Positions 7,609-45,705 of a stretch of DNA of 64,000 bases are shown here, piece by piece. Source of the stretch: Colwellia sp. PAMC 20917 (GTDB lineage Bacteria > Pseudomonadota > Gammaproteobacteria > Enterobacterales > Alteromonadaceae). Location of the stretch: NCBI RefSeq assembly GCF_001767295.1, contig NZ_CP014944.1, positions 4,464,001 through 4,528,000 of the forward strand. Reading direction: 5' to 3'. A model generated the notes under the pieces. It did no database searches. It worked only from the letters and a program-made list of their open reading frames with translations, and was not told where the DNA came from. Every line of letters begins with the position of its first letter. Position 1 is the stretch's first letter. A program made the position numbers and the translations under genes.

Positions 7609-7626
7609 CTTGTCACATGTGTCAAG
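7609..7626. promoter_or_regulatory. RutR-like operator A1 (variant CAC/GTG core)
   Basis: CTTGTCACATGTGTCAAG is palindromic at 16 of 18 positions. On the minus strand it contains TTGACA (7625-7620), followed after 18 bases by TATTTT (7601-7596): a plausible -35/-10 pair for the TonB-receptor gene. It has the same TGAC/GTCA arm geometry as sites B, C1 and D1. Binding by the local RutR-like TetR protein is inferred. Confidence 0.72.
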
Positions 7627-7631
7627 TTTAT

Positions 7632-7649
7632 CTTGACCAATTGGACAAG
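7632..7649. promoter_or_regulatory. RutR-like operator A2 (canonical CCA/TGG core)
   Basis: CTTGACCAATTGGACAAG matches the E. coli RutR consensus TTGACCAnnTGGTCAA at all but one base (a single T-to-A change in the right arm). Its start lies 23 bp from the start of A1, about two helical turns, so dimers could bind on the same face. It lies upstream of the predicted receptor -35. Confidence 0.72.
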
Positions 7650-7741
7650 AAAATACTATTTTAAATAATAGTAACATAAACAATGAAACCAAAAGTAGGA
7701 TTAATCATGTTGCCACGTAAAAAATTAACTAATGCTATGTT

Positions 7742-8344
7742 TCCTTTGGGCAAGGAGAAGATGGTCCAACGCATCAACCGATAGAACAGCTAACCAATTT
7801 ACGCACTACACCTAACCTAACAACTTGGCGTCCTTGTGATGCCACTGAATCAGCTGTTGCTTGGAAAATGGCGGTTAAAAATCAAAAAGCACCGAGTGCA
7901 TTAATTTTTTCACGTCAAAATTTATCAGCCATACCCCGCAATGAATCACAGTTAGCAAATATTGAAAAAGGTGCTTACGTACTAGCCACTTGTCAAGGGA
8001 CACCTGAGGTTATCTTAATTGCGACGGGCTCTGAAGTAGAACTTGCTTTAGATGCTGGCAAAGTACTGACCGCGCAAGGACAAAGAGTACAAGTTGTTTC
8101 TATGCCATCAACCAATATATTTGATGCGCAAAGTAGCGATTATAAAGAAGAAGTACTGCCAGCCGCTGTGACTAAACGTGTTGCTATTGAAGCCGCCCAT
8201 AGCGATTTTTGGAGAAAGTATGTCGGTTTAAGTGGCGGCGTTGTCGGTCTTAGTCGTTTTGGAGAGTCAGCACCGGGCAAAGTGTTAATGGAGTACTTTA
8301 ATTTCACTGTTGATGAGGTTGTTAAAACGGTTAAAGCCTTGTAA
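7742..8344 (+). pseudogene. tkt: Transketolase C-terminal fragment
   Basis: About 200 codons that match the last third of transketolase: [71 protein letters not shown]. The fragment covers part of the pyrimidine-binding domain and the C-terminal domain. The thiamine-diphosphate/metal-binding N-terminal domain and roughly 450 residues are missing. The homologous frame opens after a TAA at 7730-7732; no proper start or ribosome-binding site precedes it, and the first internal ATG is at 7868. It cannot be an active transketolase. It lies just downstream of operators A1/A2 and divergent from the TonB receptor, so the intact gene may once have been a regulon member (inference). Confidence 0.88.
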
Positions 8345-8359
8345 TGATAGTTTAAAAGT

Positions 8360-8400
8360 AATGCCACAGCCGTTAGATAAGAAGTTCACGCTGTGGTATT
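8360..8400 (+). terminator. Hairpin after the transketolase remnant
   Basis: An 11-bp stem with one G-T pair (AATGCCACAGC at 8360-8370 against GCTGTGGTATT at 8390-8400) enclosing a 19-base loop. There is no strong T-run, so it is at best a weak terminator left from the intact gene. Confidence 0.45.
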
Positions 8401-8587
8401 AATATACAATCTGCATTATTACTTTTTGTTATTTGTTGACTACTTGGTTAAGATTATTTATCTTGGTGTCGTGTCAAATTTGCACTGCATTTGTGTACGT
8501 TTTATTCGGGTATTATTACGGAGCTATAAGCATTATGGAAAATATAGGGAGTGTTACCATTATTTAATAAAAACATAAGGTATATAA

Positions 8588-10225
8588 ATGAACTATAAAA
8601 ATAATATTGCTGCTTTATTACTCTGTGCTACCAGCCATTATGCTGTTGCAGACGTTAATAATGGAAGTTTTGAAACATGGTTAGCAGGCTCCCCTTCGGG
8701 TTGGACGACGATTGATTCTGGTATTAGCGTGAATAAAAATACCACTATTTTTCAAGAAGGTTTGAGTTCAGCTGAAATTACCGTTAATACCGGTACGCAA
8801 GGTTCTACCGACATTCAACAACTGGTCAGTGTTGTCGCAGGACAAACTTACGAATTTTCTGTTTGGGTTTACCATACAGAAGGAAGTATCAAAGCGCGTT
8901 TATATATCGATGGCTATCAGGGCTACTCGAATGAAAGTCTAGTTAATCAATGGCAACAAGTTACCCATAGTTATACCGCCAGCTCAACATCAGATATTGC
9001 TGTTGGCTTACGTTTTTACGACATTGCCGGTTTTGATGGTTCTGAAATTGTCTATGTTGACTATTTTCAACCTACTCAAGCATCGGGCGGTGGGACCGGC
9101 AGTTGCAGTACCAACAATGTGACTTTTAGTTTAACCACAGATAATTACGGTTACGAAACCAGTTGGACATTAACCAACACGAGTAATCAAGAAGTTGCTA
9201 GTGGTAATAATTACGAAAGTTCGACCAGCTATAATGAAAGTTATTGTTTAGCGGATGATGATTATACTTTTACCATTAATGATACTTATGGTGATGGTAT
9301 TTGCTGTACTTACGGCAATGGCTCTTATGAATTTTCTCTTGCCGGAACTGCATTAATTAACGGTGGTGACTTCAACAGCAGTGAAACAAAAACCTTTACT
9401 TTAGGTAACACAGGCGGAATTCCGGGTGGAGGAGGCAGTGGCTCAGGCACTTATTCTGGTACCTATTATGACGGCATTAGCTCGACATCAGGTTACCCGT
9501 TAAAAACAGAGCTTTATAATTTAATCAAAGATCATGCAAATCAGGGCTATTCAGCGCTATGGACCTTCTATGAAAACCATTCTTTGGATGTTTATTTTGA
9601 AAATGATGGCTCTATTTTAGATATATATTCTGAAAATCCGCTGACGAGTGACAATTATAATTTTATTAAAGTCACCAATCAGTGTGGTAATTATAGCGGT
9701 GAAGGCGATTGTTATAATCGAGAACATACTTTCCCAAAAAGCTGGTTTGGCGGCAAAGTAGAGCCAATGAACTCTGATGTTCATCACATTTATGCAACCG
9801 ACGGTTTTGTTAACTCGAAACGCGGTGGTTTCCCTTACGGTGAAGTTGCCACAGCATCTTTTACTTCAACTAATAACAGTAAATTAGGCTCAGCAACTAC
9901 GACTTTAGGTTATAGCGGCACTGTGTTTGAACCTATTGATGAATTTAAAGGTGATTTAGCCCGTGCACAATTTTACATGGCCACGCGTTATGAAAACTTG
10001 ATTGGTGGCTGGCAGAATAATTCAGTGTATGGTGATGCTATTTTAGATGGTAGTAGTAATCAAGTTTTTGAATTATGGCAATTAGAAATGTTATTGCGTT
10101 GGCATACTAATGACCCAGTCAGTCAAAAAGAAATAGATCGAAATGAAGCGGCACTTGGTCATCAAGGTAACCGTAATCCTTTTGTTGACCATCCTGAATA
10201 TGTTGACAGTATCTGGGGTAACTAA
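8588..10225 (+). CDS. Secreted endonuclease I family nuclease with N-terminal accessory domains
   Basis: A 545-residue exported nuclease. A signal peptide (cleaved near HYAVA-DV, residue 21) is followed by a jelly-roll, carbohydrate-binding-like module (about 22-165), then a Cys-containing module with DTYGDGICCTYGNGSYEF (about 170-280). A Gly/Ser-rich linker follows (PGGGGSGSG, about 283-290), and then the endonuclease I domain (about 300-540). Catalytic-domain signatures are NREHTFPKSWFGG and SDVHHIYATDGFVNSKRGG, with the metal/His centre in DVHH. Family members cut DNA and/or RNA without sequence specificity. No RutR-like palindrome was found upstream. Likely role: extracellular nucleic-acid digestion for nutrient recovery. 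Confidence 0.9.
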   Translation: MNYKNNIAALLLCATSHYAVADVNNGSFETWLAGSPSGWTTIDSGISVNKNTTIFQEGLSSAEITVNTGTQGSTDIQQLVSVVAGQTYEFSVWVYHTEGSIKARLYIDGYQGYSNESLVNQWQQVTHSYTASSTSDIAVGLRFYDIAGFDGSEIVYVDYFQPTQASGGGTGSCSTNNVTFSLTTDNYGYETSWTLTNTSNQEVASGNNYESSTSYNESYCLADDDYTFTINDTYGDGICCTYGNGSYEFSLAGTALINGGDFNSSETKTFTLGNTGGIPGGGGSGSGTYSGTYYDGISSTSGYPLKTELYNLIKDHANQGYSALWTFYENHSLDVYFENDGSILDIYSENPLTSDNYNFIKVTNQCGNYSGEGDCYNREHTFPKSWFGGKVEPMNSDVHHIYATDGFVNSKRGGFPYGEVATASFTSTNNSKLGSATTTLGYSGTVFEPIDEFKGDLARAQFYMATRYENLIGGWQNNSVYGDAILDGSSNQVFELWQLEMLLRWHTNDPVSQKEIDRNEAALGHQGNRNPFVDHPEYVDSIWGN

Positions 10226-10290
10226 TTAAGGGGAATTCTCTTATTCATTGCTTTTAAAGCATTAGGTAACTTAGTTAACAAAGTAACGTT

Positions 10291-10326
10291 AAGGCATTTC
10301 ATTTTCAAAGGTGAAGTGCCTTTTTT
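10291..10326 (+). terminator. Intrinsic terminator of the endonuclease I gene
   Basis: An inverted repeat AAGGCATTTCA...GTGAAGTGCCTT with one mismatch/wobble and a loop of about 10 bases, followed directly by a run of T (10321-10326). Confidence 0.8.
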
Positions 10327-10471
10327 ATGTTCAGGATGGCCTCTCTCAGACATCCTGTCTTTCAAGGCATTAGTGCATCCCTGTACGTCAACGGTATGTC
10401 ACGGTCACATGGATGTGAAGGAGAGGCGATGTTCAGGATGGCCTCTTTCAGACATCCTGTTTTTCAAGGCA
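10327..10471. repeat. Two copies of a 43-bp hairpin-forming repeat unit
   Basis: The units at 10327-10369 and 10429-10471 are identical apart from two C/T changes and lie 102 bp apart. Each holds a perfect 7-bp inverted repeat, CAGGATG...CATCCTG, around a 12-base loop. Between them sits another small hairpin (TCACAT-GG-ATGTGA, near 10405-10418). This looks like a dispersed palindromic element of the REP/BIME kind. An apparent reading frame through it (10327-10509) is just the repeat read twice and is not a gene. Confidence 0.75.
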
Positions 10472-10529: not shown

Positions 10530-11171
10530 TTACTTACTGATACCACAACCTTTAAGAATTATCTGCGTAAGGGTTTTAGCCACTTGTTCAAAGTCTTCAT
10601 TACTTAACTTATCTTTACCCATAGCTGCGGTAACTTGTGGGGCAAAATCAGCATAATGTTGCGTGGCTCCCCAAATAGTAAAGAGCAAATAAAGTGGGTC
10701 AATTGGGTCCATTTTACCTTGCTTAATCCAGCCTTCAATAGTCGCTTTAACCTCATCTATCCAAGTTTTAAAACTGGTTTTTAAGTATTCCTGCAAGCGA
10801 GGAGCACCGTGTATAAATTCACCGGCAAATATCCGTGATGCTTCAGGATTAGTTTTTGAATACATCACCTTAGCAAGAATATAATCACCTAAGACTTTAG
10901 CCGGTTCTTCAGTCGAGGTAATAATGGATGAATCCCATAAGCTAAGAATTTCTAATAATATATCAGAGTAAATAGCTTCTTTATTTTTATAATAATAATG
11001 AACATTTGCCCGTGGGATACCGGCGCGTTCAGCAATGCCTTTTATTGATGCTCCTTTAAAACCATGCTCTAAGAAATCTTGCTCGGCAGCTTTTAAAATG
11101 ATCAATTGATTCTTTTTTCTGACCCGTCCAGTTGATGACGTGTTTGGTTGTTGATTCTTTATTATTGGCAT
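10530..11171 (-). CDS. TetR family regulator, RutR-like
   Basis: About 213 residues. The N-terminal TetR helix-turn-helix (about residues 20-65) reads AAEQDFLEHGFKGASIKGIA and IPRANVHYYYKNKEAIYSDIL. The C-terminal ligand domain closely resembles E. coli RutR, including GAPRLQEYLK, GWIKQGKMDPIDPLYLLF and IWGATQHYADFAPQV; E. coli RutR has the corresponding TQHYADFAPQV segment. E. coli RutR senses uracil/thymine and controls pyrimidine and related genes. I chose the ATG at 11171; a TTG at 11180 is in frame. The gene is divergent from deoD with a single palindromic operator (11283-11300) between them, so autoregulation and control of the purine operon are likely (inference). The effector may be a purine or pyrimidine base. 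Confidence 0.88.
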   Translation of the reverse strand: MPIIKNQQPNTSSTGRVRKKNQLIILKAAEQDFLEHGFKGASIKGIAERAGIPRANVHYYYKNKEAIYSDILLEILSLWDSSIITSTEEPAKVLGDYILAKVMYSKTNPEASRIFAGEFIHGAPRLQEYLKTSFKTWIDEVKATIEGWIKQGKMDPIDPLYLLFTIWGATQHYADFAPQVTAAMGKDKLSNEDFEQVAKTLTQIILKGCGISK

Positions 11172-11282
11172 ATTAATCAATCATCTTTACAGGATTTATT
11201 AGCAGGGTGGCAAATATAAGCTATTTCAACAATAAAGTTAATAGTCAATTTAGGGTTTAATTTTAGCAGAATTATGATTTTA

Positions 11283-11300
11283 CTTGACACTGGTGTCAGG
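11283..11300. promoter_or_regulatory. RutR-like operator B over the deoD -35 box
   Basis: CTTGACACTGGTGTCAGG is a near-perfect palindrome of the CAC/GTG type. Its TTGACA (11284-11289) is followed after 18 bases by TATTAT (11308-11313), a good promoter for deoD. A bound dimer would block that -35. No CCA/TGG-type partner site was found in this intergenic region. Confidence 0.75.
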
Positions 11301-11372: not shown

Positions 11373-12077
11373 ATGCCAACACCACATATCTCAGCTAATG
11401 TCGGAGATTTTGCCGAAACGGTTATCATGCCGGGTGATCCCTTACGTGCAAAATTCATCGCAGACAACTACCTAACTAATGTTAAACAGGTCACCGAAGT
11501 TAGAAATATGTTTGGCTATACGGGTGAATACAAAGGTAAACGTATTTCGGTGATGGGCTCAGGTATGGGGATCCCATCTATGTCTATTTATGCGACTGAG
11601 CTTTACCGAGATTATGGCGTCGAAAATATCATTCGTGTTGGTAGCTGTGGTTCAATTCGTGACGATATACAACTAGAAGATATCGTTATAGCTATGGGTG
11701 CCAGCACCGACTCTAATGTTAATCGCCAACGATTGAATAATTATGATTTTGCGGCTATAGCTAACTATGAGCTACTAGAAAAAGTGGTTAGCACCGCGAA
11801 GCGGTTAGGCAAAACGCCGAAAGTCGGCAATGTTTTTTCAGCTGATTTGTTTTATGTACCAGAATTTGAAGTATTCGCGAAGTTAGAAAAATATGGCATT
11901 CTTGCGGTAGAAATGGAAGCGGCTGGTCTTTATGGCGTTGCTGCTGAATTAGGTAAAAAAGCGCTATGCCTGCTAACAGTAAGTGATCATATTAAAACAG
12001 GCGAAAAAATGTCAGCAGAAGATCGTCAGTTAAAATTTGGCGAAATGATTGAAGTTACTCTAGAAAGTATTCTTTAG
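11373..12077 (+). CDS. deoD: Purine nucleoside phosphorylase, DeoD type
   Basis: A 234-residue hexameric-type phosphorylase that splits purine (deoxy)nucleosides with phosphate into free base and (deoxy)ribose-1-phosphate. Recognisable motifs are [17 protein letters not shown] (phosphate loop), [42 protein letters not shown] (ribose/base pocket) and the catalytic Asp in [10 protein letters not shown]. Length matches E. coli DeoD. It is first in a plus-strand run; xdhA starts 35 bases after its stop. Its promoter overlaps operator B. It would feed hypoxanthine and guanine to the XdhAB and GuaD enzymes encoded downstream. Confidence 0.95.
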
Positions 12078-12112: not shown

Positions 12113-13666
12113 ATGTCAGACAATAAAATTCAATTTTTGTTAAATAACGAACGTAAAGTTATCGAAAATTGTGATCCTAATATGACGGTACTCAACTATT
12201 TAAGAGAAGAGTTGAGTCGAAAAGGGACGAAAGAAGGTTGTGCTTCAGGAGACTGTGGTGCCTGTACAGCAGTGCTTGCTGAAGTGGTTCAATCAGCAAA
12301 AAGTCAAACAACAACAGAACATCTTAGTTATCAATCGATTAATACCTGCATTACTTTTTTATCAGCACTGCATGGCAAACAGCTTGTGACAGTAGAAGAT
12401 TTACAGCAAGGAAATAAATTACATAGTGTTCAACAAGCTATGGTCGATTGCCATGGCTCACAATGTGGCTTTTGTACTCCTGGTTTTGTCATGTCACTTT
12501 TTTCATTAAAGAAAAATTTAGCGCAAGCCAAGTTCACTGATGCGACAGATAATTCTCCTGCTGTTGATTTAGACAAAGACATTGAGCATGGTTTGGCGGG
12601 TAACTTGTGCCGCTGTACTGGCTATCGCTCGATTACTGAAGCGGCAAAACAAGCTTGTGATAACAATGACGTTGATCAGTTTGAGCACGAGCAAGCGGCG
12701 ACTATTGAGCAATTAAAACTTATAGCTCAGCAAGAAGAAACTGTTGAGTTGCACAATAATGGCAAGAGTCTTTATCTTCCTTATACCTTAGATAAACTAG
12801 CACAATTGGTTGAACAATACCCGAAAGCTAAATTGTTAGCCGGTGGTACCGATTTAGCGTTAAGCGTTACCCAAGGTATGGCGCAAATACAAACCATGAT
12901 TTCGATGAGTAATGTGCGCGAGCTTGCACAAATTAATGAATCAGCAGAAACTTTGTCTATTGGCGCTATGGTGAGCTATGAGCAAAGCCATCAGTTATTA
13001 AGCCAGCATTATCCAGAATTTGGTCAAATGCTTTATCGCCTTGGTTCAACTCAGGTGAGGAATTCGGGCACGTTAGGGGGAAATGTCGGTAATGCTTCTC
13101 CGATTGGAGACACACCACCCGTGTTAATCGCCTTAGGTGCTAAGCTAGTGCTTCGCAAAGGCGAGCGTACTCGTCAAATATCTGTTGAAGATTACTTTGT
13201 TGATTACAAAGTGACACAACTCGAAAGTGGTGAGTTCATTGAACGTATTGAAATTCCAAAAGCTAACAGTAATAAACATCTCAAAGTCTTTAAAATATCA
13301 AAACGATTAGATGATGACATCTCGACGGTGCTTGCCTGTTTCTATATTAAATTTGCCAATAAAAAAGTGGCTAACATTACCATTGCTTTCGGCGGTATGG
13401 CAGGCATACCAAAACGCGCTTTTTCCTGTGAACAAGCTTTAATGGGCAAAGAGCCTAGCGAACAAAATATTGCTTTAGCGATGACAGCATTAGCAAAAGA
13501 CTTCTCTCCGATGTCAGATGTGCGCGCGAGCAGTGAATATCGCTTACAAGTGGCAAAAAACTTAGTGAGAAAATGCTTTTATGAACTAGAGCAAACGCAT
13601 GCAGCAACCCGAATCGAAACCTTTGAAGTCGATACCTTCGAAGTGAAAGGAGTGACTCATGCGTAA
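12113..13666 (+). CDS. xdhA: Xanthine dehydrogenase small subunit (2Fe-2S and FAD domains)
   Basis: 517 residues. The N-terminal ferredoxin-like domain (about 1-90) carries CASGDCGACTAVL. The second 2Fe-2S domain follows, with HGSQCGFCTPGFVMS and NLCRCTGYRSI. The FAD-binding domain (about 210-390) starts with LAGGTDLALSVTQG and contains the GGNVGNASPIGDTPP loop, and the CO_dh C-terminal domain completes the chain. Together with XdhB it oxidises hypoxanthine and xanthine to urate. It overlaps xdhB by 8 bases and follows deoD closely, so it belongs to the same operon. Confidence 0.95.
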   Translation: MSDNKIQFLLNNERKVIENCDPNMTVLNYLREELSRKGTKEGCASGDCGACTAVLAEVVQSAKSQTTTEHLSYQSINTCITFLSALHGKQLVTVEDLQQGNKLHSVQQAMVDCHGSQCGFCTPGFVMSLFSLKKNLAQAKFTDATDNSPAVDLDKDIEHGLAGNLCRCTGYRSITEAAKQACDNNDVDQFEHEQAATIEQLKLIAQQEETVELHNNGKSLYLPYTLDKLAQLVEQYPKAKLLAGGTDLALSVTQGMAQIQTMISMSNVRELAQINESAETLSIGAMVSYEQSHQLLSQHYPEFGQMLYRLGSTQVRNSGTLGGNVGNASPIGDTPPVLIALGAKLVLRKGERTRQISVEDYFVDYKVTQLESGEFIERIEIPKANSNKHLKVFKISKRLDDDISTVLACFYIKFANKKVANITIAFGGMAGIPKRAFSCEQALMGKEPSEQNIALAMTALAKDFSPMSDVRASSEYRLQVAKNLVRKCFYELEQTHAATRIETFEVDTFEVKGVTHA

Positions 13667-16031
13667 ATTAAGTGAAATTGATAAAGGTCTCGAAAGTAAA
13701 AAAAGTTCTGGTGCGGTTGGGCAATCGACCAAGCATGAGAGTGCTGAAATGCATGTTACCGGCAAAGCCGTTTATACTGATGACAAATTAGAGTCGTTAG
13801 GGCAATTGCATGCTGCTGTGGGTATGGCAACAATTGCCAGTGGTAATATTACCGCGATAGATTTATCGGCAGTACGCGCCGCCAAGGGTGTAGTTGCTGT
13901 TATTACCTTAGATGACATTGTTGGCCATACTGATATTGGTCCTGTTTTTCCGGGCGATCCAATACTCACCAAAGATGTCGTTGAATTTTATGGTCAAGCT
14001 ATCTTTGCGGTCGCTGCGACGAGCCATGAGTTAGCAAAACAAGCGGTAGCGTTGGCAAAAATTGACTATAAAGAAAAAACACCAGTACTGACTATTAAAC
14101 AAGCGTTAGAAGCTAAGAGCTTTGTTCGTCCACCGCATAGTATGAAACGTGGTGATAGTGCCACTGCTATTGAGCAAGCTAAGCATCAGCTGAGTGGTGA
14201 GATTACCATTGGTGGCCAAGAACATTTTTATTTGGAAGGTCAAATAGCCAGTGTTATTCCCACCGAAGATGGCGGAATGACCGTTTATTCATCTAGCCAA
14301 CATCCTGCTGAAGTTCAAAAACTTGTGGCAGAAGTGTTAGGTATTCCTTTTAACCGCGTCGTTGTCGATATGAAACGTATGGGTGGTGGTTTTGGCGGCA
14401 AAGAAACACAAGCGGCTGGTTGGTCTTGTTTAGCGGCGGTACTTGCCGATAAAACCCAAAAAGCGGTAAAACTGCGTTTAAATCGTAGCGACGATATGAT
14501 GATGACTGGTAAACGTCATCCTTTTGAAAATCATTATCAAGTGGGGTTTAATGATCAAGGTGTTATTGAAGGCATAGATATAACGGTCAATGGTAATTGT
14601 GGTTACTCACCTGATTTATCAGATGCCATCGTCGACAGAGCCATGTTTCATGCTGATAATGGTTATTACTTGGACCATGTCAGTATTATCGGTAATCGTT
14701 GTAAGACAAATACCGCCTCCAATACCGCTTTTCGAGGTTTTGGTGGTCCGCAAGGTATGATGATTATTGAGTGTGTCATGGATGATATTGCTTACTCTCT
14801 AGGATTAGACCCACTTGCTGTGCGTAAAACTAACCTTTACGGTACAGATGCGCGCAATATTACCCCGTACCATCAGCAAGTAGAGCACAATAATTTAGCT
14901 GAGATGATAACCAAACTTGAGCATAGCTCTCGTTATGCCGGGCGTTGCCAAGAAATTGATGAATTTAATGCCGGCAGTAAATTTCTTAAAAAAGGTATTT
15001 CACTAACACCGGTTAAATTTGGTATTTCGTTTACTGCTCAGCATCTTAATCAAGCCGGGGCGCTGATTAATATTTATACCGACGGAAGTGTTGATGTTAC
15101 ACATGGCGGCACTGAAATGGGGCAAGGCTTGCATACTAAAATTGCCCAAATCGTTGCACAAGTTTTTGGTATCGCCGTTGATAAGGTAAAAGTATCAGCA
15201 ACGCGCACCGATAAAGTCCCTAATGCTTCACCAACAGCGGCTTCTTCAGGTACCGATCTCAATGGTAAAGCCGCTCAAAACGCTGCACAAACAATTAAAC
15301 AAAGGTTAATTGATTTTGCTGTCGAGCACTTTGCTGTTGAGAGTAACGAGATAACTTTTAATGACGATTTAATCGATGCCGGTGAGCATAAACTCAGTTT
15401 TGTCGAGTTAGTCCAAAAAGCGTATTTTGCTCGGGTGTCTTTATCGTCGACCGGTTTTTATCGAACGCCAAAAATTTATTACGATAGAGAAAGCGCCCAA
15501 GGTCGACCGTTTTTCTATTTTGCGATGGGTGCTTCAGTATCTGAAGTGTTAATCGATACGCTGACCGGTGAATACAAATTATTACAAACCGATATCCTTC
15601 ATGATGTTGGTGACTCTTTAAACCCTGCGATAGATATAGGCCAAATTGAAGGTGGTTATATTCAAGGCGTCGGTTGGTTAACCACTGAAGAATTACATTG
15701 GAATGATAAGGGACGTTTGTTAACGACTGGGCCGGCCACCTATAAAATTCCTGCTATTAGCGATGCACCAAAAGTCTTTAACGTTGAGTTGTTGAAAGAT
15801 TCACCTAATCGTGAAGCGACCATTTACCATTCTAAAGCGGTAGGCGAGCCACCGTTTATGTTGGCTATTTCTGTCTGGTCAGCGCTGCGCGCCGCTATTG
15901 CTAACTCTGTTGCTGCAAAAGATAGAGCCAAAGGTGTTATTCCGTCGCTTGATACTCCTGCCACACCAGAGCGAGTTTTAAAGGCTGTGCAATTAATAAC
16001 CGCCCAGCAAGGGATGGCCACTGATGAATAA
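13659..16031 (+). CDS. xdhB: Xanthine dehydrogenase large (molybdopterin) subunit
   Basis: 790 residues of the molybdenum hydroxylase large subunit. Cofactor and active-site motifs are present in order: GGGFGGKETQAAGW (about 240-260), NTAFRGFGGPQGMM, GGTEMGQGLHTKIAQ, SPTAASSGTDLNGKAAQNA, and KAVGEPPFMLAISVWSALR with the catalytic Glu in GEPP near residue 730. The start overlaps xdhA by 8 bases and the end overlaps xdhC by 8 bases (ATGAATAA), so the three are translationally coupled. The product works in the cytoplasm as a heteromeric complex with XdhA. Confidence 0.95.
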   Translation: MRKLSEIDKGLESKKSSGAVGQSTKHESAEMHVTGKAVYTDDKLESLGQLHAAVGMATIASGNITAIDLSAVRAAKGVVAVITLDDIVGHTDIGPVFPGDPILTKDVVEFYGQAIFAVAATSHELAKQAVALAKIDYKEKTPVLTIKQALEAKSFVRPPHSMKRGDSATAIEQAKHQLSGEITIGGQEHFYLEGQIASVIPTEDGGMTVYSSSQHPAEVQKLVAEVLGIPFNRVVVDMKRMGGGFGGKETQAAGWSCLAAVLADKTQKAVKLRLNRSDDMMMTGKRHPFENHYQVGFNDQGVIEGIDITVNGNCGYSPDLSDAIVDRAMFHADNGYYLDHVSIIGNRCKTNTASNTAFRGFGGPQGMMIIECVMDDIAYSLGLDPLAVRKTNLYGTDARNITPYHQQVEHNNLAEMITKLEHSSRYAGRCQEIDEFNAGSKFLKKGISLTPVKFGISFTAQHLNQAGALINIYTDGSVDVTHGGTEMGQGLHTKIAQIVAQVFGIAVDKVKVSATRTDKVPNASPTAASSGTDLNGKAAQNAAQTIKQRLIDFAVEHFAVESNEITFNDDLIDAGEHKLSFVELVQKAYFARVSLSSTGFYRTPKIYYDRESAQGRPFFYFAMGASVSEVLIDTLTGEYKLLQTDILHDVGDSLNPAIDIGQIEGGYIQGVGWLTTEELHWNDKGRLLTTGPATYKIPAISDAPKVFNVELLKDSPNREATIYHSKAVGEPPFMLAISVWSALRAAIANSVAAKDRAKGVIPSLDTPATPERVLKAVQLITAQQGMATDE

Positions 16032-16962
16032 CCGTCAAAGTTGGTCTGAAGCGGTTAGTTCATTAAAGATCAAAGGAGAGGCCTTTGTCTTGCTAACAAT
16101 TATTGGTGTGCATGGCTCAGCGCCTAGAAATTCTGGTACTAAGATGGTGGTGAGTGCCAATAGCACTTATGACACTATTGGTGGTGGTCACTTAGAGTTT
16201 AAGTCTATCGCGATAGCGCAACAATTATTAGCAGACGAAGATAAGAATCAACATATCGAGCACTTTTCTTTAGGTGCTTCCTTAGGGCAATGTTGCGGCG
16301 GAGATTGTAGCGTATTATTTGAAAGCTTTGCAGCTTGTAAAACTCAAATAATGCTTTTCGGCGCAGGCCATGTTGGTAAAGCGTTAACGACCATCCTTGC
16401 TGACTTACCTTGCCAGCTAAAATGGGTTGATAATCGCCCAGAACAGTTTCCTGTTGAGATGTTGGCAAATGCGCCGGCTAATATTGAGTGTCTTGTCAGT
16501 GACAACCCGGTAGATGAAATAGCTAGCATGCCTGCAGGCAGTTTTTTTATCATTATGACCCATAATCATCAATTAGATTTTGAACTATGCCAGGCGCTGT
16601 TAAAGCGTGGAGATTTTGCGTATGCCGGTTTAATTGGTTCTGAGACAAAATGGAAACGCTTTCAGCATCGCTTAAAACATCGAGAATTTAGTAAGCAAGC
16701 CATTGAACAGCTCATTTGTCCTATTGGTTTAAGCGCCGTGCCGGGTAAACGTCCTATGGAAGTTGCGGTATCAATTGCGGCTGAAATTATCGGTTTATAT
16801 CAAAAAGACGACCATGCGGGTCATCAGTCAACTACCGCGCAAGGTATTAGTTTTAAAGCGTTAACGCCTTTACTTAATAGCGCGACTAATCTCCATATTA
16901 CCGGTCGAAGCAAAAATAAAGTAACTGATAGCAAACCGATTACAGATAAGATTAATGAATAA
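16024..16962 (+). CDS. xdhC: XdhC, molybdenum cofactor insertion chaperone for xanthine dehydrogenase
   Basis: 312 residues. The N-terminal XdhC/CoxI domain shows VHGSAPRNSGTKMVV, the GGGHLEF glycine-rich motif and GQCCGGDCSVLFE. A Rossmann domain follows, with LFGAGHVGKAL, VDNRPEQFP, THNHQLDFELC and AGLIGSETKWKRF. XdhC binds the pyranopterin cofactor, promotes sulfuration and delivers it to XdhB; it is not part of the final enzyme. The C-terminal 45 residues or so look divergent and low in complexity. Its end overlaps the start of the allantoinase remnant by 8 bases, using the same ATGAATAA junction as the xdhB/xdhC pair. Confidence 0.93.
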   Translation: MNNRQSWSEAVSSLKIKGEAFVLLTIIGVHGSAPRNSGTKMVVSANSTYDTIGGGHLEFKSIAIAQQLLADEDKNQHIEHFSLGASLGQCCGGDCSVLFESFAACKTQIMLFGAGHVGKALTTILADLPCQLKWVDNRPEQFPVEMLANAPANIECLVSDNPVDEIASMPAGSFFIIMTHNHQLDFELCQALLKRGDFAYAGLIGSETKWKRFQHRLKHREFSKQAIEQLICPIGLSAVPGKRPMEVAVSIAAEIIGLYQKDDHAGHQSTTAQGISFKALTPLLNSATNLHITGRSKNKVTDSKPITDKINE

Positions 16963-17053
16963 CTTTACCTTAGGTTCAACAGGCGTTATTAGCCCAGAAG
17001 GTATAAAAGCTGCAACACTTATTATTAACAGCGACAGGTTAAAAACCGCATAA
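16955..17053 (+). pseudogene. Allantoinase N-terminal remnant (32 codons)
   Basis: A 32-codon frame begins with an ATG overlapping the xdhC stop by 8 bases and reads MNNFTLGSTGVISPEGIKAA, then TLIINSDRLKTA and a stop. The VISPEGIKAATLIINSDR segment resembles the opening strands of cyclic amidohydrolases of the allantoinase type (pattern RVVTPEGVRPAxVxVxxGRI). The other roughly 430 codons, including all metal-binding residues, are gone, and uraD follows after 82 bases. The overlap, position in a purine-catabolic operon and sequence pattern together support a deleted allB. The identification rests on a short match. Confidence 0.5.
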
Positions 17054-17135
17054 TAATGAGATCAAATTATATATTTATCCTAATAATGTCCTTAAGACAA
17101 GGTGCATTATTGGTTACCTTGAATAAGGAAACGTT

Positions 17136-17675
17136 ATGTCGATTATCGTGTTAAATGCTTTGCAACCTCAGGCTGCCCACTTGGCCTTTATGCAGTGCTG
17201 TACCGCTAATACTTGGGTGAACCGCATGGTGGCTGCTGTGCCATATAACAATTTAGCGGCGTTATCTGCACACGCTGATGTCAGCTGGAAAAACCTAACA
17301 GAAGCCGATTATTTGCAGGCTTTTGAAGGGCATCCTAAAATTGGCGATGTGTCCAGCCTGAGAGAAAAATACCGCTCGACAGAGAAGATTGCCGCGGGAG
17401 AGCAATCGGGTGTTAATACAGCGACAGAACAAGCATTAAGTGAGTTAAAGCGATTAAATGATGACTATCAAGAAAAATTTGGCTTCATTTTTATTGTTTG
17501 TGCCACAGGTAAAACAGCCACGCAGATGTTAGATATATTGGTAAAACGTTACGCGAATAATCGCGCTGAAGAAATCATTAATGCAGCAGAAGAGCAACGA
17601 AAAATATTACAGTTACGAATCGAAAAAATGATTGCTGAAACTGCCACTACTGCTTCAAACGTAAAAGAGACCTAA
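17136..17675 (+). CDS. uraD: OHCU decarboxylase (2-oxo-4-hydroxy-4-carboxy-5-ureidoimidazoline decarboxylase)
   Basis: 179 residues, all helical. Family signatures are FEGHPKIGD (catalytic His region, about residues 66-74), EQSGVNTATEQALSELKRLN, NDDYQEKFGFIFIVCATGK, and the basic RYANNRAEEIINAAEEQ segment. The enzyme converts OHCU to S-allantoin, the third step of urate breakdown. It has AAGGAAA upstream and is separated from uraH by four bases. It probably stays in the deoD-xdh transcript despite the deletion scar just upstream. Confidence 0.92.
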   Translation: MSIIVLNALQPQAAHLAFMQCCTANTWVNRMVAAVPYNNLAALSAHADVSWKNLTEADYLQAFEGHPKIGDVSSLREKYRSTEKIAAGEQSGVNTATEQALSELKRLNDDYQEKFGFIFIVCATGKTATQMLDILVKRYANNRAEEIINAAEEQRKILQLRIEKMIAETATTASNVKET

Positions 17676-17679
17676 GTTT

Positions 17680-18048
17680 ATGAGTCAAATAACTTCACAT
17701 ATATTAGACACCAGTCGCGGTAAACCTGCCGCTGGTATCACTATTTCTCTCTTTGAACTTAAGGGTTCAAATGATGGCGACAGTAATATCCAAGCACAGT
17801 GGTCACTTTTGGCACAAGGCCAAACAAACAGTGATGGGCGAGTGCCGGCCTTACTTGATAAAGAGCGAATATTACCTGCGGGGAGTTATCGCGTTCATTT
17901 TGCGGTCAGTGATTATTTTAACGCGCTGAATGAGCAAGCCTTTTATCCCTACGTTGATATTGTTTTTGATATCAGTGGTGATGGTGAACACTATCATATT
18001 CCATTATTATTGACCGCTTTTGGTTACTCAACTTATCGTGGCAGCTAA
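17680..18048 (+). CDS. uraH: 5-hydroxyisourate hydrolase (transthyretin-like)
   Basis: 122 residues with the transthyretin fold: SQITSHILDTSRGKPAAGI at the start, with the catalytic His, then DGRVPALL and FYPYVDIVF. The tail YRGS is the hallmark that separates the enzyme from true transthyretin. It hydrolyses 5-hydroxyisourate to OHCU, the UraD substrate. An insertion of several residues (GSNDGDSNIQ) follows the second strand. It sits four bases after uraD and one base before the allA start. Confidence 0.94.
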   Translation: MSQITSHILDTSRGKPAAGITISLFELKGSNDGDSNIQAQWSLLAQGQTNSDGRVPALLDKERILPAGSYRVHFAVSDYFNALNEQAFYPYVDIVFDISGDGEHYHIPLLLTAFGYSTYRGS

Positions 18049-18049
18049 G

Positions 18050-18583: not shown

Positions 18584-18587
18584 GTCG

Positions 18588-37147: not shown

Positions 37148-37179
37148 AACATAACTTGTCACTTGTGTCAGGTTATGTT
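37148..37179. promoter_or_regulatory. RutR-like operator C1 within an extended 32-bp palindrome
   Basis: The core CTTGTCACTTGTGTCAGG (37155-37172) is of the CAC/GTG type and is flanked by AACATAA and TTATGTT, which extend the dyad to 32 bp. TTGTCA (37156-37161) with TAGAAT (37180-37185) at 18-base spacing forms a likely add promoter, so binding would repress add. Confidence 0.75.
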
Positions 37180-37194: not shown

Positions 37195-37212
37195 ATTAAC
37201 CATATGGTCAAG
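37195..37212. promoter_or_regulatory. RutR-like operator C2 (CCA/TGG core)
   Basis: ATTAACCATATGGTCAAG carries a perfect right half (TGGTCAAG) of the RutR consensus. On the minus strand TTGACC (37211-37206) is followed after 17 bases by TACATT (37188-37183), a likely promoter for the nuclease-phosphatase fusion gene. C1 and C2 thus cover the two divergent promoters. Confidence 0.7.
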
Positions 37213-37261
37213 TTTTCTTTGTCCATGAGTATAAACAGATAAAATGTTAAGGAATAGTATA

Positions 37262-38263
37262 ATGTTTAGAGATATTCCCTTTATTGATTTACACCGCCAT
37301 TTAGACGGCAATATAAGAGCAAAAACAATTCTGGCATTAGGACAACAGCATGGTATCGAATTACCCGCTGATAATTTGACTGATTTACTACAGCATGTAC
37401 AAATTCAAGGTAAAGAAAGTAACTTAGTCTCTTTTTTACAAAAACTTGATTATGGCGTTAGCGTGTTAGCTAATTTAGAGGCATGTAAACGTATCGCTTA
37501 TGAAAACGTTGAAGATGCTTTTTTGCAAGGGCTTGATTATGCTGAATTAAGATTCTCTCCTTATTATATGGCTATGGAACATAAGCTCAATGTCACCGAC
37601 GTGGTTGCTGCGGTGGTCGACGGCGTAAAGTTAGCGCAAAAAGATTTTCCTGTCCAAATTAACCTTATTGGTATTTTAAGTCGTACCTTTGGTGTTAATG
37701 CCTGTTTTGAGGAGTTACATGCCTTACTTGCACACAAAAATGAACTTGTCGCGGTCGATTTAGCTGGAGATGAATTAGGCAAGCCAGGCCAACTCTTTGT
37801 TGAACACTTTGCTTTGGTTAATAAAGCCGGCTTACAGGTGACTATTCATGCCGGTGAAGCGGATGGAGCATCGAGTATCTATCAGGCTATCAATGAATTA
37901 CATGCAACCCGCATTGGCCATGGTACTCACGCTGTGGGTGATGAAAAATTAATGGATTATATGTATCAGCATAATATCGCCATTGAATCATGTTTAACGT
38001 CAAATTATCAAACAGGGACAGTAAAAAATATCAGTCAGCATCCCGTTAAAACATTTCTTGATAGAGGTCTACTTGTTTGCCTCAACAGTGACGATCCTGC
38101 TGTGCAGGGGTGTGACATAAAATATGAATATCAGCAGGCGGCACTTGAAGCGGGGCTTAGTCAAGCCCAGTGTCGTACATTGCAAGATAACGCGTTAAAA
38201 ATGGCTTTCTTATCTGACCATGAAAAGCGAGTCTTGAGACAGACAGCAATGAAGAGGGGTTGA
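37262..38263 (+). CDS. add: Adenosine deaminase
   Basis: 333 residues, the same length as E. coli Add when started at the ATG at 37262. That start has AAGGAA eight bases upstream, so I prefer it to the ATG at 37244. Zinc-site and catalytic motifs are present: [42 protein letters not shown] (His and Glu), [18 protein letters not shown] and [10 protein letters not shown]. The enzyme deaminates adenosine and deoxyadenosine to (deoxy)inosine, which DeoD then splits. Promoter and operator C1 lie immediately upstream. A 400-base gap separates it from nupC. Confidence 0.95.
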
Positions 38264-38670: not shown

Positions 38671-39891
38671 ATGGATACGAATATACTACGCAGCATTTTG
38701 GGGATTTTTGTCCTTTTAGCTATTGCCTATTTCGCCTCGTCAGATAGAAAGAACATTAATTGGCGAACGATTATTGGTGCACTAGTGTTACAAATATCTC
38801 TGGGTGCTTTTGTGTTATATATCCCCGCAGGTAAAGATATCTTGTTGAGTGTTGCTAGCGGTGTATCTAATGTTATTGGCTATGCCAATGACGGTATTAG
38901 CTTTATATTTGGCGAACAAATAGGTGAAAAAAGTTTAGGCTTTATGTTCGCTTTCCATGTCTTACCCGTCATCGTCTTTTTCTCGGCGTTGATTGCCGTG
39001 CTTTATTATATTGGTGTAATGGAGTTGGTAATTAAGTTTATTGGTGGTGGTTTGCAAAAACTTCTTAAAACCAGTCAAGCTGAATCTATGTCAGCGACCG
39101 CAAATATTTTTGTTGGTCAAACCGAAGCGCCTTTAGTGATAAAACCTTTTTTGCCTAAGATGACCCGCTCTGAACTTTTTGCGGTAATGGTGGGTGGCTT
39201 AGCATCGGTAGCAGGCTCGGTAGTCGCCGGTTACGCTGGTATTGGTATTGATTTAAAATATCTCATCGCCGCTAGCTTTATGGCTGCCCCTGGCGGCTTG
39301 CTGATGGCAAAAATGTTAGTGCCTGAAACTGAACAGCCGAACGACAATTTAGACGATATGAAAAGCGATGTTAAAGAGGCCGTTAATGTTATTGATGCAG
39401 CGGCCACCGGAGCATCTAATGGCATGATGCTCGCGCTAAATGTTGGTGCTATGTTATTAGCATTTGTTGCCCTACTGGCGATGGTAAACGGTTTGCTAGG
39501 TGGCTTTGGAGAATGGTTCGGCCTACAAAACCTGAGCTTACAACTGATTTTAGGTTATATTTTTCAACCGGTCGCTTATCTTATTGGGATCCCTTGGCAT
39601 GAAGCAAACATGGCTGGGAGTTTCCTTGGTCAAAAAATTATCATCAATGAATTCGTCGCCTATCTAGATTTTATTACTGTTGCTGATCAATTAAGTGCCA
39701 GAACCCAAGCCATTATTACCTTTGCACTTTGTGGTTTTGCTAACTTATCTTCCGTGGCTATTTTATTAGGCGGCATGGGTAACATGGCTCCTTCTCGTCG
39801 GCCCGATATTGCTAAGCTTGGCATGAAAGCGGTTCTCGCTGGGGCTATGGCTAACCTGATGAGCGCAACTATTGCGGGAATTTTTATCTAA
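38671..39891 (+). CDS. nupC: Concentrative nucleoside transporter, NupC family
   Basis: 406 residues with about ten hydrophobic segments. Family features include the gate region VGQTEAPLVIKPFLPKMT, GGLASVAGSVVAGYAG, AAPGGLLMAKMLVPE, GVPWHEAN-like IGIPWHEANMAGSF and GGMGNMAPSRRPDIAKLGMK. It is an inner-membrane cation/nucleoside symporter. The ATG has CAGGGAATAAC upstream. talB follows after 64 bases and pgi after that, so uptake is linked in one transcript with enzymes for the pentose part of nucleosides. Confidence 0.93.
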   Translation: MDTNILRSILGIFVLLAIAYFASSDRKNINWRTIIGALVLQISLGAFVLYIPAGKDILLSVASGVSNVIGYANDGISFIFGEQIGEKSLGFMFAFHVLPVIVFFSALIAVLYYIGVMELVIKFIGGGLQKLLKTSQAESMSATANIFVGQTEAPLVIKPFLPKMTRSELFAVMVGGLASVAGSVVAGYAGIGIDLKYLIAASFMAAPGGLLMAKMLVPETEQPNDNLDDMKSDVKEAVNVIDAAATGASNGMMLALNVGAMLLAFVALLAMVNGLLGGFGEWFGLQNLSLQLILGYIFQPVAYLIGIPWHEANMAGSFLGQKIIINEFVAYLDFITVADQLSARTQAIITFALCGFANLSSVAILLGGMGNMAPSRRPDIAKLGMKAVLAGAMANLMSATIAGIFI

Positions 39892-40918: not shown

Positions 40919-40939
40919 GATAACTTTAGGAAACCCTTC

Positions 40940-42843: not shown

Positions 42844-44055
42844 TTAAAACTTTAGTTCGTCTAAAAAAGACTGACCATAATCCATTGCGTCTAAGGTAAA
42901 TAAACTGGCTAAAGTTTGTCCCAAATCGGCAAAACTATTGCGCTGGCCTAAGTTTATCGAATCGATATGATTGTGATAAGCGATAACTGGCACGAATTCA
43001 CGCGTATGATCATTGCCTGGCCAAGTAGGATCACAACCGTGATCAGCGGTTAATAGCAGTAAGTCATCATCAGCCATTTGATCTAAAAACTCCGCTAAAC
43101 GCTCATCGAAATATTCTAACGCTTCGCCAAACCCGACAGGGTCACGTCGATGACCAAAGTCTTGATCAAAATTAACTAGATTGGTAAAAATAATACTCTT
43201 ATCTGCTGCGGTTTTCATATGTGCGAGCGTTGCATCTAATAACGCAGGTAGTCCGGTTGCTTTGGTTTTGATACTAATACCCTGATGCGCAAAAATATCA
43301 GCAATTTTACCGACACTTATCACCGTACCATCGGCTTGCGTTAATTTTTCTAATACGGTGGTCGCTGGAGGTAATACTGAATAATCTCTGCGATTACCTG
43401 TTCGCTCAAAATCGGCAGGAATCTCACCAATAAAAGGGCGAGCGATCACACGTCCTATATTTAACGGATCGAGTATTACTCGCACTTGTTGACAATATTT
43501 ATAAAGATTATCTAAGCCAAAGTGTTGTTCATGGGCGGCAACTTGGAAAACACTGTCGCCTGAGGTGTAACAAATAGGTAAACCTGTTTTTATATGTTGT
43601 TCGCCTAAATTAGCGATAATATCGGTACCAGAGGCATGGCAATTTCCTAACATATCAGCATAACCTGTGGCTTGGTTTATTTGTGCCATCAGTTCTGCTG
43701 AGAAGCTATTTTTCTTATCAGTAAAGTAAGTCCAATCAAATAACACCGGCACTCCTGCCATTTCCCAGTGGCCACTGGGGGTATCCTTACCGGTACTTAT
43801 TTCAGCAGCGTAACCATAAGCGCCTTTAGTTGGCTTAACGGGCTCAACACAAAGTGTGCGACCTGACGCTTGTTGGCAAGCCTTAACTAAGCCCAGTTTA
43901 CTTAAATGAGGAAGCTTTAAAGGGCGTCCTTTAATTTCTTGAAATTTTTCGGCTAAATTTGCAAAGGTGTTGGCATTAACATCACCAAAAGCTTCTGCAT
44001 CAGGGGCATGACCTAAGCCAAAACCGTCAATGACCAAAATAATTGCTCTCGACAT
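42844..44055 (-). CDS. deoB: Phosphopentomutase
   Basis: About 403 residues, of the alkaline-phosphatase superfamily. The metal-site motifs are [31 protein letters not shown] (phospho-threonine region), [30 protein letters not shown] and [20 protein letters not shown]. It converts (deoxy)ribose-1-P to (deoxy)ribose-5-P after DeoD or DeoA cleavage. I chose the ATG at 44055 because GAGAA lies just upstream; an in-frame ATG at 44067 is possible. It follows deoA on the minus strand, with a terminator-like hairpin between them. Confidence 0.93.
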
Positions 44056-44094
44056 AATTGTTCTCATTTTATAAATTTATTTAAAAGAAGGGGA

Positions 44095-44127
44095 TAAAAA
44101 GTTAAGGCGACTTTACAGTCGCCTTAA
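44095..44127 (-). terminator. Intrinsic terminator between deoA and deoB
   Basis: On the minus strand an 11-bp perfect stem (TTAAGGCGACT with AGTCGCCTTAA, 4-base loop) is followed by CTTTTT. It should lower deoB expression relative to deoA. Confidence 0.75.
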
Positions 44128-44158
44128 TAATGAATTCATCTCAGTTGAGCATCAATAA

Positions 44159-45475
44159 TTAGGTAATGAGTTGATGTATTACAGGTTCAACAATAACTGG
44201 CGCTACTGAAATCTCAACCGCATTTAAGTATTGTTTAATCGCTTGAGTTGCTTGAGCGTCATCTTTGGCATGAACAATAGCAATGATGTCGCCTTCAGCG
44301 ACTTTCGTGCCTTTTGGTTTAATAGCACTAAAGCCGACACTGTAATCTAAGCTTTGATTATGGTCGACACGACCACCACCCATTTCTACTAATGCCATAC
44401 CTATAGCACGAGTATCCATAATGCCAATGTAACCAGCTTTTGAGGCGACGATGTTTTTAGTCATATTAGCTTTAGGCAGTAAACTTTCACTGTGGGTTAA
44501 TAAATCAGCTGGACCACCCATCGCGGTGATCATTTTGCCAAATATTTCAGCGGCTTTACCTGATGTTAATGCCTCTTCGGCTAACGTTGTCGCTTGTTCA
44601 ATATCACTGGCTATTTTACTGGTTAATAACATTCGAGCAGCTAGGGCTATGGTGACTTCATGCAACCTTGGCTCACGATATTTTCCGGTCAAATAGTCAA
44701 TAGTTTCTTGTATTTCAAGTGCATTACCCACTGTGGTACCTAGCGGCTGATTCATATCAGTGATTAATGCTTGTGTCGGTGTTCCTGCGCCATTGGCGAC
44801 TGAGACAATTGAATGTGCTAATGCTTGAGCTGATTCAATATCGGCCATCATCGCACCATTGCCTACTTTTACATCCATGACTAATGACTCGAGGCCAGCC
44901 GCTAATTTTTTTGATAAAATGGAAGCGGTGATCAATGGGATGGATTCTACTGTGCTCGTTACGTCACGAATTGAATAAAGGCGTTTGTCGGCTGGTGCTA
45001 AATCTTTGGTTTGTGAAATAATTGCTGTGCCTTGCTCCTTAACTGTTGCTTGGAACTCTGCAAGGCTAGGGCGAACATTAAAACCAGGAATGGCCTCTAA
45101 TTTATCAACCGTACCACCAGTATGACCTAAACCTTGTCCTGCAATCATTGGCACATTAGCCCCACATGCCGCAACTATTGGTGCTAGCATTAAGCTTACT
45201 TTATCACCAACACCACCCGTTGAATGTTTATCTACAATGGGTTTGTTTAATTTATTATGCCAATCAACAACCGTACCCGAATCACGCATAGCCATGGTTA
45301 GATTAACAACTTCATCAGTTGTCATGCCATTAAGCCAAATTGCCATAGCCATTGAGCCAACTTGTGCATCGGTGAAATCACCTGTTTTAAGACCATCAAC
45401 AAAGCATTGAATTTCATCTACAGTTAAAGCTTGTTTATTACGTTTTTGACGAATGATATTTTGAGGTAAGTGCAT
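44159..45475 (-). CDS. deoA: Thymidine phosphorylase
   Basis: 438 residues (E. coli DeoA has 440). Motifs include IRQKRNKQALTVDEIQCFVD, the phosphate-binding VDKHSTGGVGDKVSLMLAP, GQGLGHTGGTVDKLEAIPG, LYSIRDVTSTVESIPLIT and GNGAMM. It splits thymidine and deoxyuridine with phosphate into base and deoxyribose-1-P. The promoter region carries operators D1 and D2. It is divergent from the YgjV-like gene at 45747, and deoB follows. Confidence 0.95.
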   Translation of the reverse strand: MHLPQNIIRQKRNKQALTVDEIQCFVDGLKTGDFTDAQVGSMAMAIWLNGMTTDEVVNLTMAMRDSGTVVDWHNKLNKPIVDKHSTGGVGDKVSLMLAPIVAACGANVPMIAGQGLGHTGGTVDKLEAIPGFNVRPSLAEFQATVKEQGTAIISQTKDLAPADKRLYSIRDVTSTVESIPLITASILSKKLAAGLESLVMDVKVGNGAMMADIESAQALAHSIVSVANGAGTPTQALITDMNQPLGTTVGNALEIQETIDYLTGKYREPRLHEVTIALAARMLLTSKIASDIEQATTLAEEALTSGKAAEIFGKMITAMGGPADLLTHSESLLPKANMTKNIVASKAGYIGIMDTRAIGMALVEMGGGRVDHNQSLDYSVGFSAIKPKGTKVAEGDIIAIVHAKDDAQATQAIKQYLNAVEISVAPVIVEPVIHQLIT

Positions 45476-45654
45476 AGTGATCCCTTTAGATAATAATTGA
45501 GTTGAAAAGCATTAGGTAACAATTATGTAAACGTCCATACTTTTAAATTTGTTAATTGGTTGCTAATAGCATAGCTATGTATTGCTTTTATTTAGTATTA
45601 TAGTTGAGTCATAACTAGCTGTTAAATACATTTATTAGCCATATATTGTGTTTT

Positions 45655-45672
45655 CCTGACTCATGTGTCAAG
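45655..45672. promoter_or_regulatory. RutR-like operator D1 (CAC/GTG-like core)
   Basis: CCTGACTCATGTGTCAAG has the same layout as A1, B and C1, with one arm imperfect. On the minus strand it contains TTGACA (45671-45666), a likely -35 for deoA with an A+T-rich -10 region about 18 bases on. Confidence 0.68.
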
Positions 45673-45687
45673 ATCTAATCGTGTTTT

Positions 45688-45705
45688 TCTGACCATTTGG
45701 TCAGA
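45688..45705. promoter_or_regulatory. RutR-like operator D2 (canonical CCA/TGG core)
   Basis: TCTGACCATTTGGTCAGA holds TGACCAnnTGGTCA, the full core of the RutR consensus. It overlaps a plausible plus-strand -35 (CTGACC) with TACTAT 17 bases downstream, which would serve the gene at 45747. D1 and D2 are 33 bp apart, about three helical turns. Confidence 0.75.

Follow-up and report, generated by a model that had tools for sequence, protein, structure and literature searches.

Polysaccharide utilisation loci place an outer-membrane receptor, secreted depolymerases and a substrate regulator under common control. RutR of Escherichia coli binds a palindromic site of approximately 16 bp (available text of PMC10891134), and large RutR regulons with taxon-specific motif changes are already published: RutR regulogs in Proteobacteria show a mosaic distribution and a mean of 10.9 genes, according to the available text of PMC5343134. 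In Shewanella, growth on DNA uses extracellular nucleases plus nucleotidases (available text of PMC8289736), and the nucleoside regulators DeoR* and PnuR are Crp-family proteins (available text of PMC3223726). Here we analyse a stretch of 64,000 nucleotides (the window) from Colwellia sp. PAMC 20917, corresponding to C1:4464001-4528000 of a genome that consists of one contig (C1) of 4,683,314 bases. It carries palindromic boxes at promoters of genes for nucleic-acid breakdown, TonB-dependent uptake and nucleoside metabolism, together with a RutR-like TetR regulator, W (10530..11180, minus strand). We consider it probable that two paralogous RutR-like repressors with diverged operators converge on shared genes for nucleic-acid use.

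This system resembles polysaccharide utilisation loci in combining a receptor, secreted depolymerases and a substrate regulator; unlike them, it spans at least two loci, has a nucleic-acid substrate and includes two predicted repressor-type regulators. W shares with E. coli RutR the same two-domain architecture (PF08362), aligns with it over residues 18-212 and keeps W77, Y97, W167, Q171 and Q179, and one of the two classes of box found here (class B) is a RutR-type palindrome. It differs in scoring below the TIGR03613 cut-off, in carrying R in place of K52 and H in place of L56, in its class A boxes, and in its link to purine degradation, nucleases and TonB uptake. The available text of PMC5343134 makes no mention of a second paralog, a purine clade or paired boxes, the main text of PMC8289736 does not mention TonB, and its available text has no two-regulator control. 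Likewise, no report of a second, purine-linked RutR-like regulator or of paired boxes was found in the literature searched, which did not extend to subscription papers, RegPrecise or supplements.

Our analysis revealed two motif classes, where an earlier note made from the sequence alone had described seven palindromes with TGAC/GTCA arms at promoters and a single type of regulator for them. All seven palindromes were recovered (7609-7626, 7632-7649, 11283-11300, 37155-37172, 37195-37212, 45655-45672 and 45688-45705), and all sit between reading frames of at least 100 amino acids. The arms are not all of the TGAC/GTCA form: four sites read TGWCAC..GTGWCA (class A) and three TGACCA..TGGTCA (class B), and the seven palindromes are two motifs, not one. 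The class A consensus is TTGWCAC-nn-GTGWCAA, with members CTTGTCACATGTGTCAAG (7609), CTTGACACTGGTGTCAGG (11283), CTTGTCACTTGTGTCAGG (37155) and CCTGACTCATGTGTCAAG (45655); the class B consensus is the RutR-like TTGACCA-nn-TGGTCAA, with members CTTGACCAATTGGACAAG (7632), ATTAACCATATGGTCAAG (37195) and TCTGACCATTTGGTCAGA (45688), the RutR box consensus itself being as the note gave it. Mismatches to the class pattern number 0, 1, 1 and 2 among the A sites and 1, 1 and 2 among the B sites.

The sites far exceed chance expectation in the window. Against 200 dinucleotide shuffles, three A matches with at most one mismatch were seen (0.05 expected) and two such B matches (0.005 expected), and A and B lay within 60 bp of each other three times in the window and in none of the shuffles. 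The RutR box with up to three mismatches occurred 12 times, compared with a shuffle mean of 3.31 and with 0 of 100 shuffles reaching 12. The literal pattern TGAC-N10-GTCA has the wrong spacing and misses the sites because their arms stand 6 bases apart; its single match in the window, at 18283, is unrelated. An A-like match at 1150 falls within the frame 323-1570 and was read as chance.

The arrangement of the predicted operators differs among promoters. A class A operator stands alone (11283..11300) between tetR and deoD with the purine-degradation genes, where it overlaps a predicted -35 (TTGACA-18-TATTAT); zero-mismatch A sites near the same position also occur in loci L102, L103, L278 and L279. 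The other six form A+B pairs: before the TonB receptor, between it and a transketolase remnant (A at 7609..7626, B at 7632..7649, centres 23 bp apart); between add and the nuclease-phosphatase fusion gene (A at 37155..37172, B at 37195..37212, centres 40 bp apart); and between deoA and a YgjV-like gene (A at 45655..45672, B at 45688..45705, centres 33 bp apart). An eighth, weak B-like site outside the original seven (8436..8451, two mismatches) precedes the gene for an endonuclease I (EndoI), and B-like sites with one or two mismatches precede the homologous gene in L278, L280, L137 and L223. The idea that one arm mostly supplies the -35 stood in part: at five sites (7609, 7632, 11283, 37155 and 37195) one arm contains the start of a promoter-like match, whereas neither deoA site does so. 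Such matches numbered 19 and 29 in the two site regions (shuffles 15.3, sd 4.3, and 28.0, sd 4.9); they are common in such AT-rich DNA, and these numbers are not clearly above chance.

Genome-wide distributions set class A, and for the most part class B, apart from unrelated promoters. We built sequence-only matrices from 31 A and 31 B sites of relatives outside the genus; the genome-wide runs scored the best 150 of 1,899 first-look candidates for A and the best 150 of 3,547 for B. Among these scored candidates, the A model found four places at E up to 10, which are the window's four A sites, and unrelated promoters were not hit at the same rate. The B model found seven: deoA and add in the window, cdd and deoB/udk in a second locus described below, two places within unrelated frames and one at C1:51239, at the start of an oxygenase gene. 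A common box at functionally linked promoters that is rare elsewhere was thus found for A (4/4 in the window) and for B (4/7). Simple pattern searches discriminated less well. The loose merged pattern TTGWCMMNNKKGWCAA with two mismatches was uninformative (815 places in the genome, 867 in the control), and pattern A with up to two mismatches matched 75 places compared with 57 in the control, so that only A matches with at most one mismatch are informative; the corresponding numbers for pattern B were 35 and 16. Three B matches (C1:1063267, 4353749 and 1564982) fall within frames and were discounted as chance, and most other two-mismatch B matches were in or near unrelated genes or left aside. 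A strict 18-bp palindrome scan upstream of tetR genes gave few sites. The B site at C1:51239 belongs to a 2OG-Fe(II) oxygenase gene (L318:6344-7264, C1:50344-51264): it falls within the opening codons of that gene's longest frame, ahead of a likelier start. A nucleobase hydroxylase would fit.

Three proteins with a RutR-type domain are encoded in the genome: W, P58 (C1:82337-82981) and T60 (C1:381126-381788). W exceeds the cut-offs for both of its domains (PF08362, 154.1 bits, E 3.1e-45; PF00440, TetR_N, 42.6 bits), confirming the RutR-type ligand domain proposed for it; it is not a RutR equivalog (TIGR03613, 174.4 bits, cut-off 368). The nearest named relatives are Colwellia, with C. hornerae ACAM 607 at 98% for the TetR protein; the C. 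hornerae genome encodes regulators of both the W and the P58 type. We examined 60 neighbourhoods of RutR-like proteins in family genomes, taken from over 100 matches. A tree of 64 proteins joins W, W2 and T60 in one clade (99/93), the purine clade, apart from a P58 clade and an XDH set; XDH is a convenience label for proteins mostly linked to xdhA and an allantoinase-like gene, not one supported clade. Residue 52 (E. coli numbering) is R in 25/25 W/W2/T60 proteins and K in 38/38 P58/XDH proteins, and residue 56 is H in 25/25 and L in 36/38, respectively. K52 of E. coli RutR faces a DNA base in a homology model (available text of PMC10891134). The T60 gene (L060:7126-7788) neighbours genes for urate oxidase, a polysaccharide-deacetylase-type protein, a cupin protein and malate synthase; its product has the pocket changes D175N and Q179E, and E replaces Q179 in 3/3 T60 proteins.

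The two box classes follow different regulators. Exact intergenic matches near P58/XDH genes were 25 for B and 2 for A, and near W/W2 genes 12 for A and 2 for B; three further exact A matches in those neighbourhoods lie inside genes. Across 147 family genomes, A was present in 23/25 genomes with a W-type protein and in 28/122 without (Fisher 8e-11), and B in 53/77 genomes whose RutR-like matches are not limited to W compared with 8/70 others. Of 14 further loci we checked 10, leaving out L287-L290 (Bacteroidota, weak matches). Outside the family, a SAR92 locus whose regulator has the R/H helix (L283) carries two A-like sites, with two mismatches each, before xdhA, and a B-like site with two mismatches occurs in each of two Oceanospirillaceae (K52, H56). 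Co-occurrence and synteny therefore suggest that the TTGACCA-nn-TGGTCAA box goes with P58 and XDH-type proteins, not with W.

A single regulator of relaxed specificity, either W or P58, could instead bind both boxes, with A and B as operator variants and the pairs as co-operative double sites. The two classes do have common TTG(A/T)C..G(A/T)CAA arms and equal length, the regulators are about 40% identical (39%), and the K52R variant of E. coli RutR matches the wild type in binding RutR boxes in vitro (available text of PMC10891134). We nevertheless regard this explanation as unlikely: among the 46 genomes that carry P58, A occurs in 21/23 with W and in 1/23 without (1.5e-9), both genomes with a W-type protein only (G003 and G052) have two A sites and zero B sites each, the second locus has B boxes at its intergenic sites, and A and B front mostly different pathways. 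One common regulator, as the earlier note had it, is accordingly not supported: the RutR-like box tracks the paralog at C1:82337-82981 and the A box tracks W. The outline of a regulon for nucleic acids was right, the sites marking nuclease/phosphatase, TonB receptor and nucleoside genes; the part that did not stand was the single regulator type.

Several family genomes without W (G017, G063, G045, G111, G113 and G137) carry three to five CG-centred boxes of the TTGACACCGGTGTCAA type each, which are probably the operator of another regulator. It could be argued from these A-like boxes, which account for many A matches in genomes without W, that class A as a whole belongs to a regulator unrelated to RutR-like proteins, for instance one of LacI type (our guess) with TTGACACCGGTGTCAA. 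This seems very improbable, as 0/4 of the window's A sites are CG-centred, A sites front xdhA and W-clade tetR genes, and the link to W became stronger once CG-centred sites among the matches listed were removed (A in 23/25 genomes with W, 19/122 without).

P58 lies in a second locus (79.7-98 kb) that is ~290 kb from W if the contig is circular. Its genes comprise alkaline phosphatase, nuclease, TetR, TonB receptor, cdd, deoA, upp, deoC and nupC, and further udk, deoB, deoD, add, thymidine kinase and a second nuclease; one more we read by eye as hpt, a gene that gave no match at 1e-40. The intergenic sites of this locus are B, at 83051 (two mismatches), 86880 (one), 92991 (one) and 97419 (two), and its one A-like match (two mismatches) falls inside a nuclease gene.

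In other genomes the two boxes mostly front different pathways. In the 23 loci fetched for an A site, xdhA is the next gene in 10 (in L232 the xdhA frame, read over-long, takes in the site), and a class-V aminotransferase gene is found at the site in five (L221, L223, L230, L236 and L243), two of which face a Tsx-like porin gene. L228 and L223 hold add pairs, and at the remaining loci LysR, IclR or TonB-plug genes or pgi are nearest, or nothing clear. W-clade tetR genes likewise have A sites in front. B sites front cdd, tetR/TonB receptor, udk-nupC, pgi and a PfkB kinase gene, and in G101 a reductase gene with the dihydropyrimidine-dehydrogenase iron-sulphur domain (PreT-like) opposite an amidohydrolase. 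Class A is thus a box of purine genes; in genomes with P58, class B serves mainly pyrimidine and nucleoside genes.

The co-occurrence of A and B at shared promoters is conserved. We searched 1.456 Mb (the window plus 108 fetched loci) for A and B sites whose centres lie 9-60 bp apart and whose mismatches total three or fewer. There were 13 such pairs; three reversed-pattern controls gave none, and each of seven wider 60-bp bins held 0 or 1. The 13 pairs come from the Colwellia genome itself and seven others (five genera plus a Colwellia bin). These loci are not a random sample: a regulator or a single box was the reason for choosing most of them, L227, L228 and L240 were chosen as counterparts of the window promoters, and the L223 pair was already apparent from the genome scans. 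Spacing follows the gene. It is 23 bp at the TonB receptor/transketolase (window, L102, L137 and L278), 33 bp at deoA (window, L227 and L240) and 39-40 bp at add and/or the nuclease-phosphatase gene (window, L104, L223, L228 and L253), where L228 shows the 40-bp spacing at the same genes and L253 shows it at the nuclease-phosphatase gene; a pair at a TonB receptor in L150 is spaced 30 bp. Like the motif classes, their genome-wide distribution and the association of A with the W clade, this pairing and spacing is computed directly.

From these patterns we infer binding of each protein to its box, repression, the ligands and the logic of the shared promoters. The window would then represent one half of a two-regulator network. 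W would act as the purine-clade TetR repressor on class A boxes, and P58, encoded beside cdd-deoA-upp-tdk-deoC-nupC-udk, as the pyrimidine/nucleoside regulator on class B boxes, with a base or nucleoside from its own pathway releasing each. Genes that serve only purines or only pyrimidines would have one box at their promoters, and those serving nucleic acid as a whole (the TonB receptor, nuclease-phosphatase/add and deoA) carry both. With both boxes at shared promoters, both repressors would have to release, giving an AND switch that reads 'purine plus pyrimidine'; the overlap of five of the seven sites with a promoter-like -35 suits repression. We tentatively extend this to a conserved coincidence detector, a scenario that is plausible but for which we would not claim even odds: a RutR-like sensor would have been duplicated, one copy would have acquired K52R and L56H, an operator changed from CCA to CAC and a role in purine catabolism, and both copies would then have been wired at shared promoters, so that the programme opens only on purine and pyrimidine together.

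The two regulators may instead act in OR fashion or compete, one of them serving as activator or anti-repressor at shared promoters, such that either purine or pyrimidine induces. The spacing varies by promoter (23, 33 and 40 bp), and hence imposes no single rigid geometry, and RutR is also an indirect activator of carAB (available text of PMC10891134). The position of arms over promoter-like -35 elements fits repression, however. TetR-type proteins also mostly act as repressors. We consider OR logic possible but doubtful; it overlaps the two-repressor reading, and the likelihoods of the two are not exclusive.

Several observations weigh against two repressors with separate boxes and ligands, or complicate that view. 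Two genomes with a W-type protein (G057 and G040) have no strict A site, a Porticoccaceae locus with the R/H helix (L282) has no site within the 10.7 kb examined, and T60, also with the R/H helix, has no A or B site at up to one mismatch within 16 kb. B fronts a purine nucleoside permease gene in G120, and xdhA in genomes with an XDH-type regulator; the latter suggests that B is the ancestral box and that A arose in the W clade. The B site at 7632 is missing from the genome-wide B matrix matches and appears only in the window-wide search (10.7 bits), and the confinement of the genome-wide runs to their best-ranked candidates belongs here too. Neither helix residue alone accounts for specificity. 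The retained RutR-box binding of the K52R protein led us to reject K52R as the sole switch, and L56H was rejected as such since proteins with K52 and H56 (L128, L153, L284 and L285) have B-like sites; therefore the residue pair or further residues must matter. Moreover, the regulator clades coincide with phylogeny, and the residue-motif correlation may represent one event. Uracil contacts in RutR are W77, Y97 (via water), W167, Q171 and Q179 (available text of PMC10891134), and all five are kept in 4/4 W, 18/18 W2 and 12/13 XDH proteins (one has E at 179). The B-type P58 proteins lack Y97 (F/I in 25/25). With the pocket kept in W/W2 and Y97 lost in P58, the case for a purine ligand of W is drawn from gene content only.

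The genes around the boxes cover nucleic-acid use from extracellular breakdown to catabolism. On the minus strand, the TonB-dependent receptor (4161..7436; PF25183, PF13620 and PF00593) is accompanied by a transketolase gene (7868-8344) that is a 158-residue C-terminal remnant in the window; full transketolase domains occupy the same place in C. hornerae (L280, 664 aa) and the Colwellia bin (L278, 663 aa), preceded by an A+B pair. An endonuclease I with a carbohydrate-binding domain follows on the plus strand (8588..10225; PF04231 and PF02018), and between this nuclease gene and tetR lie two near-identical copies of a GGATGGCCTCTYTCAGACATCCTG element (10330-10470). W, which groups with W2 and is the predicted reader of class A, is followed on the plus strand by deoD (purine-nucleoside phosphorylase, 11373..12077; TIGR00107) and a purine-degradation run (12113..19913, plus strand) encoding xanthine dehydrogenase A and B, XdhC, OHCU decarboxylase, HIUase, ureidoglycolate lyase and an amidohydrolase that, from its position, we take to be guanine deaminase. 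An OrfB_IS605-type transposase gene (20226-21353) lies a few hundred bases past this run.

Further along, the nuclease-alkaline phosphatase fusion gene (34598..37093, minus; PF03372 at residues 56-407, PF00245 at 423-828) is followed by an endonuclease I with lamin-tail and PKD domains (32122..34512, minus; PF04231, PF00932 and PF22352) and then an S1/P1 nuclease (31150..31932, minus; PF02265). A single-frame fusion was rejected as a general feature of the family, occurring in 3/147 genomes at E up to 1e-150; in the second locus (C1:79668-82281), nuclease and alkaline phosphatase are encoded by neighbouring genes. Fusion in these three genomes and adjacency in the second locus argue for joint action of the two enzymes. 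The plus-strand genes add (adenosine deaminase, 37244..38263; NF006846) and nupC (nucleoside transporter, 38671..39891; TIGR00804) are separated by an inverted repeat (38542-38585) with 22-base arms, 91% complementary, that ends in A and T runs and is probably a terminator. A palindrome within it (38556-38571) was for that reason rejected as an operator; a similar TGACTA..TAGTCA palindrome precedes nupC in L228 and L253. Beyond these lie deoB (phosphopentomutase, 42844..44067, minus; NF003766), deoA (thymidine phosphorylase, 44159..45475, minus; TIGR02643) and the small YgjV-like protein gene (45747..46367, plus), whose matches to PF10688 (E 0.21, at the start) and GNAT-like PF00583 (E 0.12, at the end) are both below cut-off. 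Genes for this small protein recur by nucleic-acid genes in other genera (L223, with tal and add; L245, with deoA) and also adjoin deoA within the genus (L227 and L240).

Dissolved DNA and RNA are sources of nitrogen, phosphorus and carbon in seawater and sediment, and the published literature we searched held no answer to how bacteria sense 'nucleic acid' as opposed to a single base. The genes, boxes and spacing described here give a testable answer to how nucleic acid may be recognised. They also make a compact case of paralogous regulators with diverged operators and shared promoters, in genomes that carry one regulator, the other or both.

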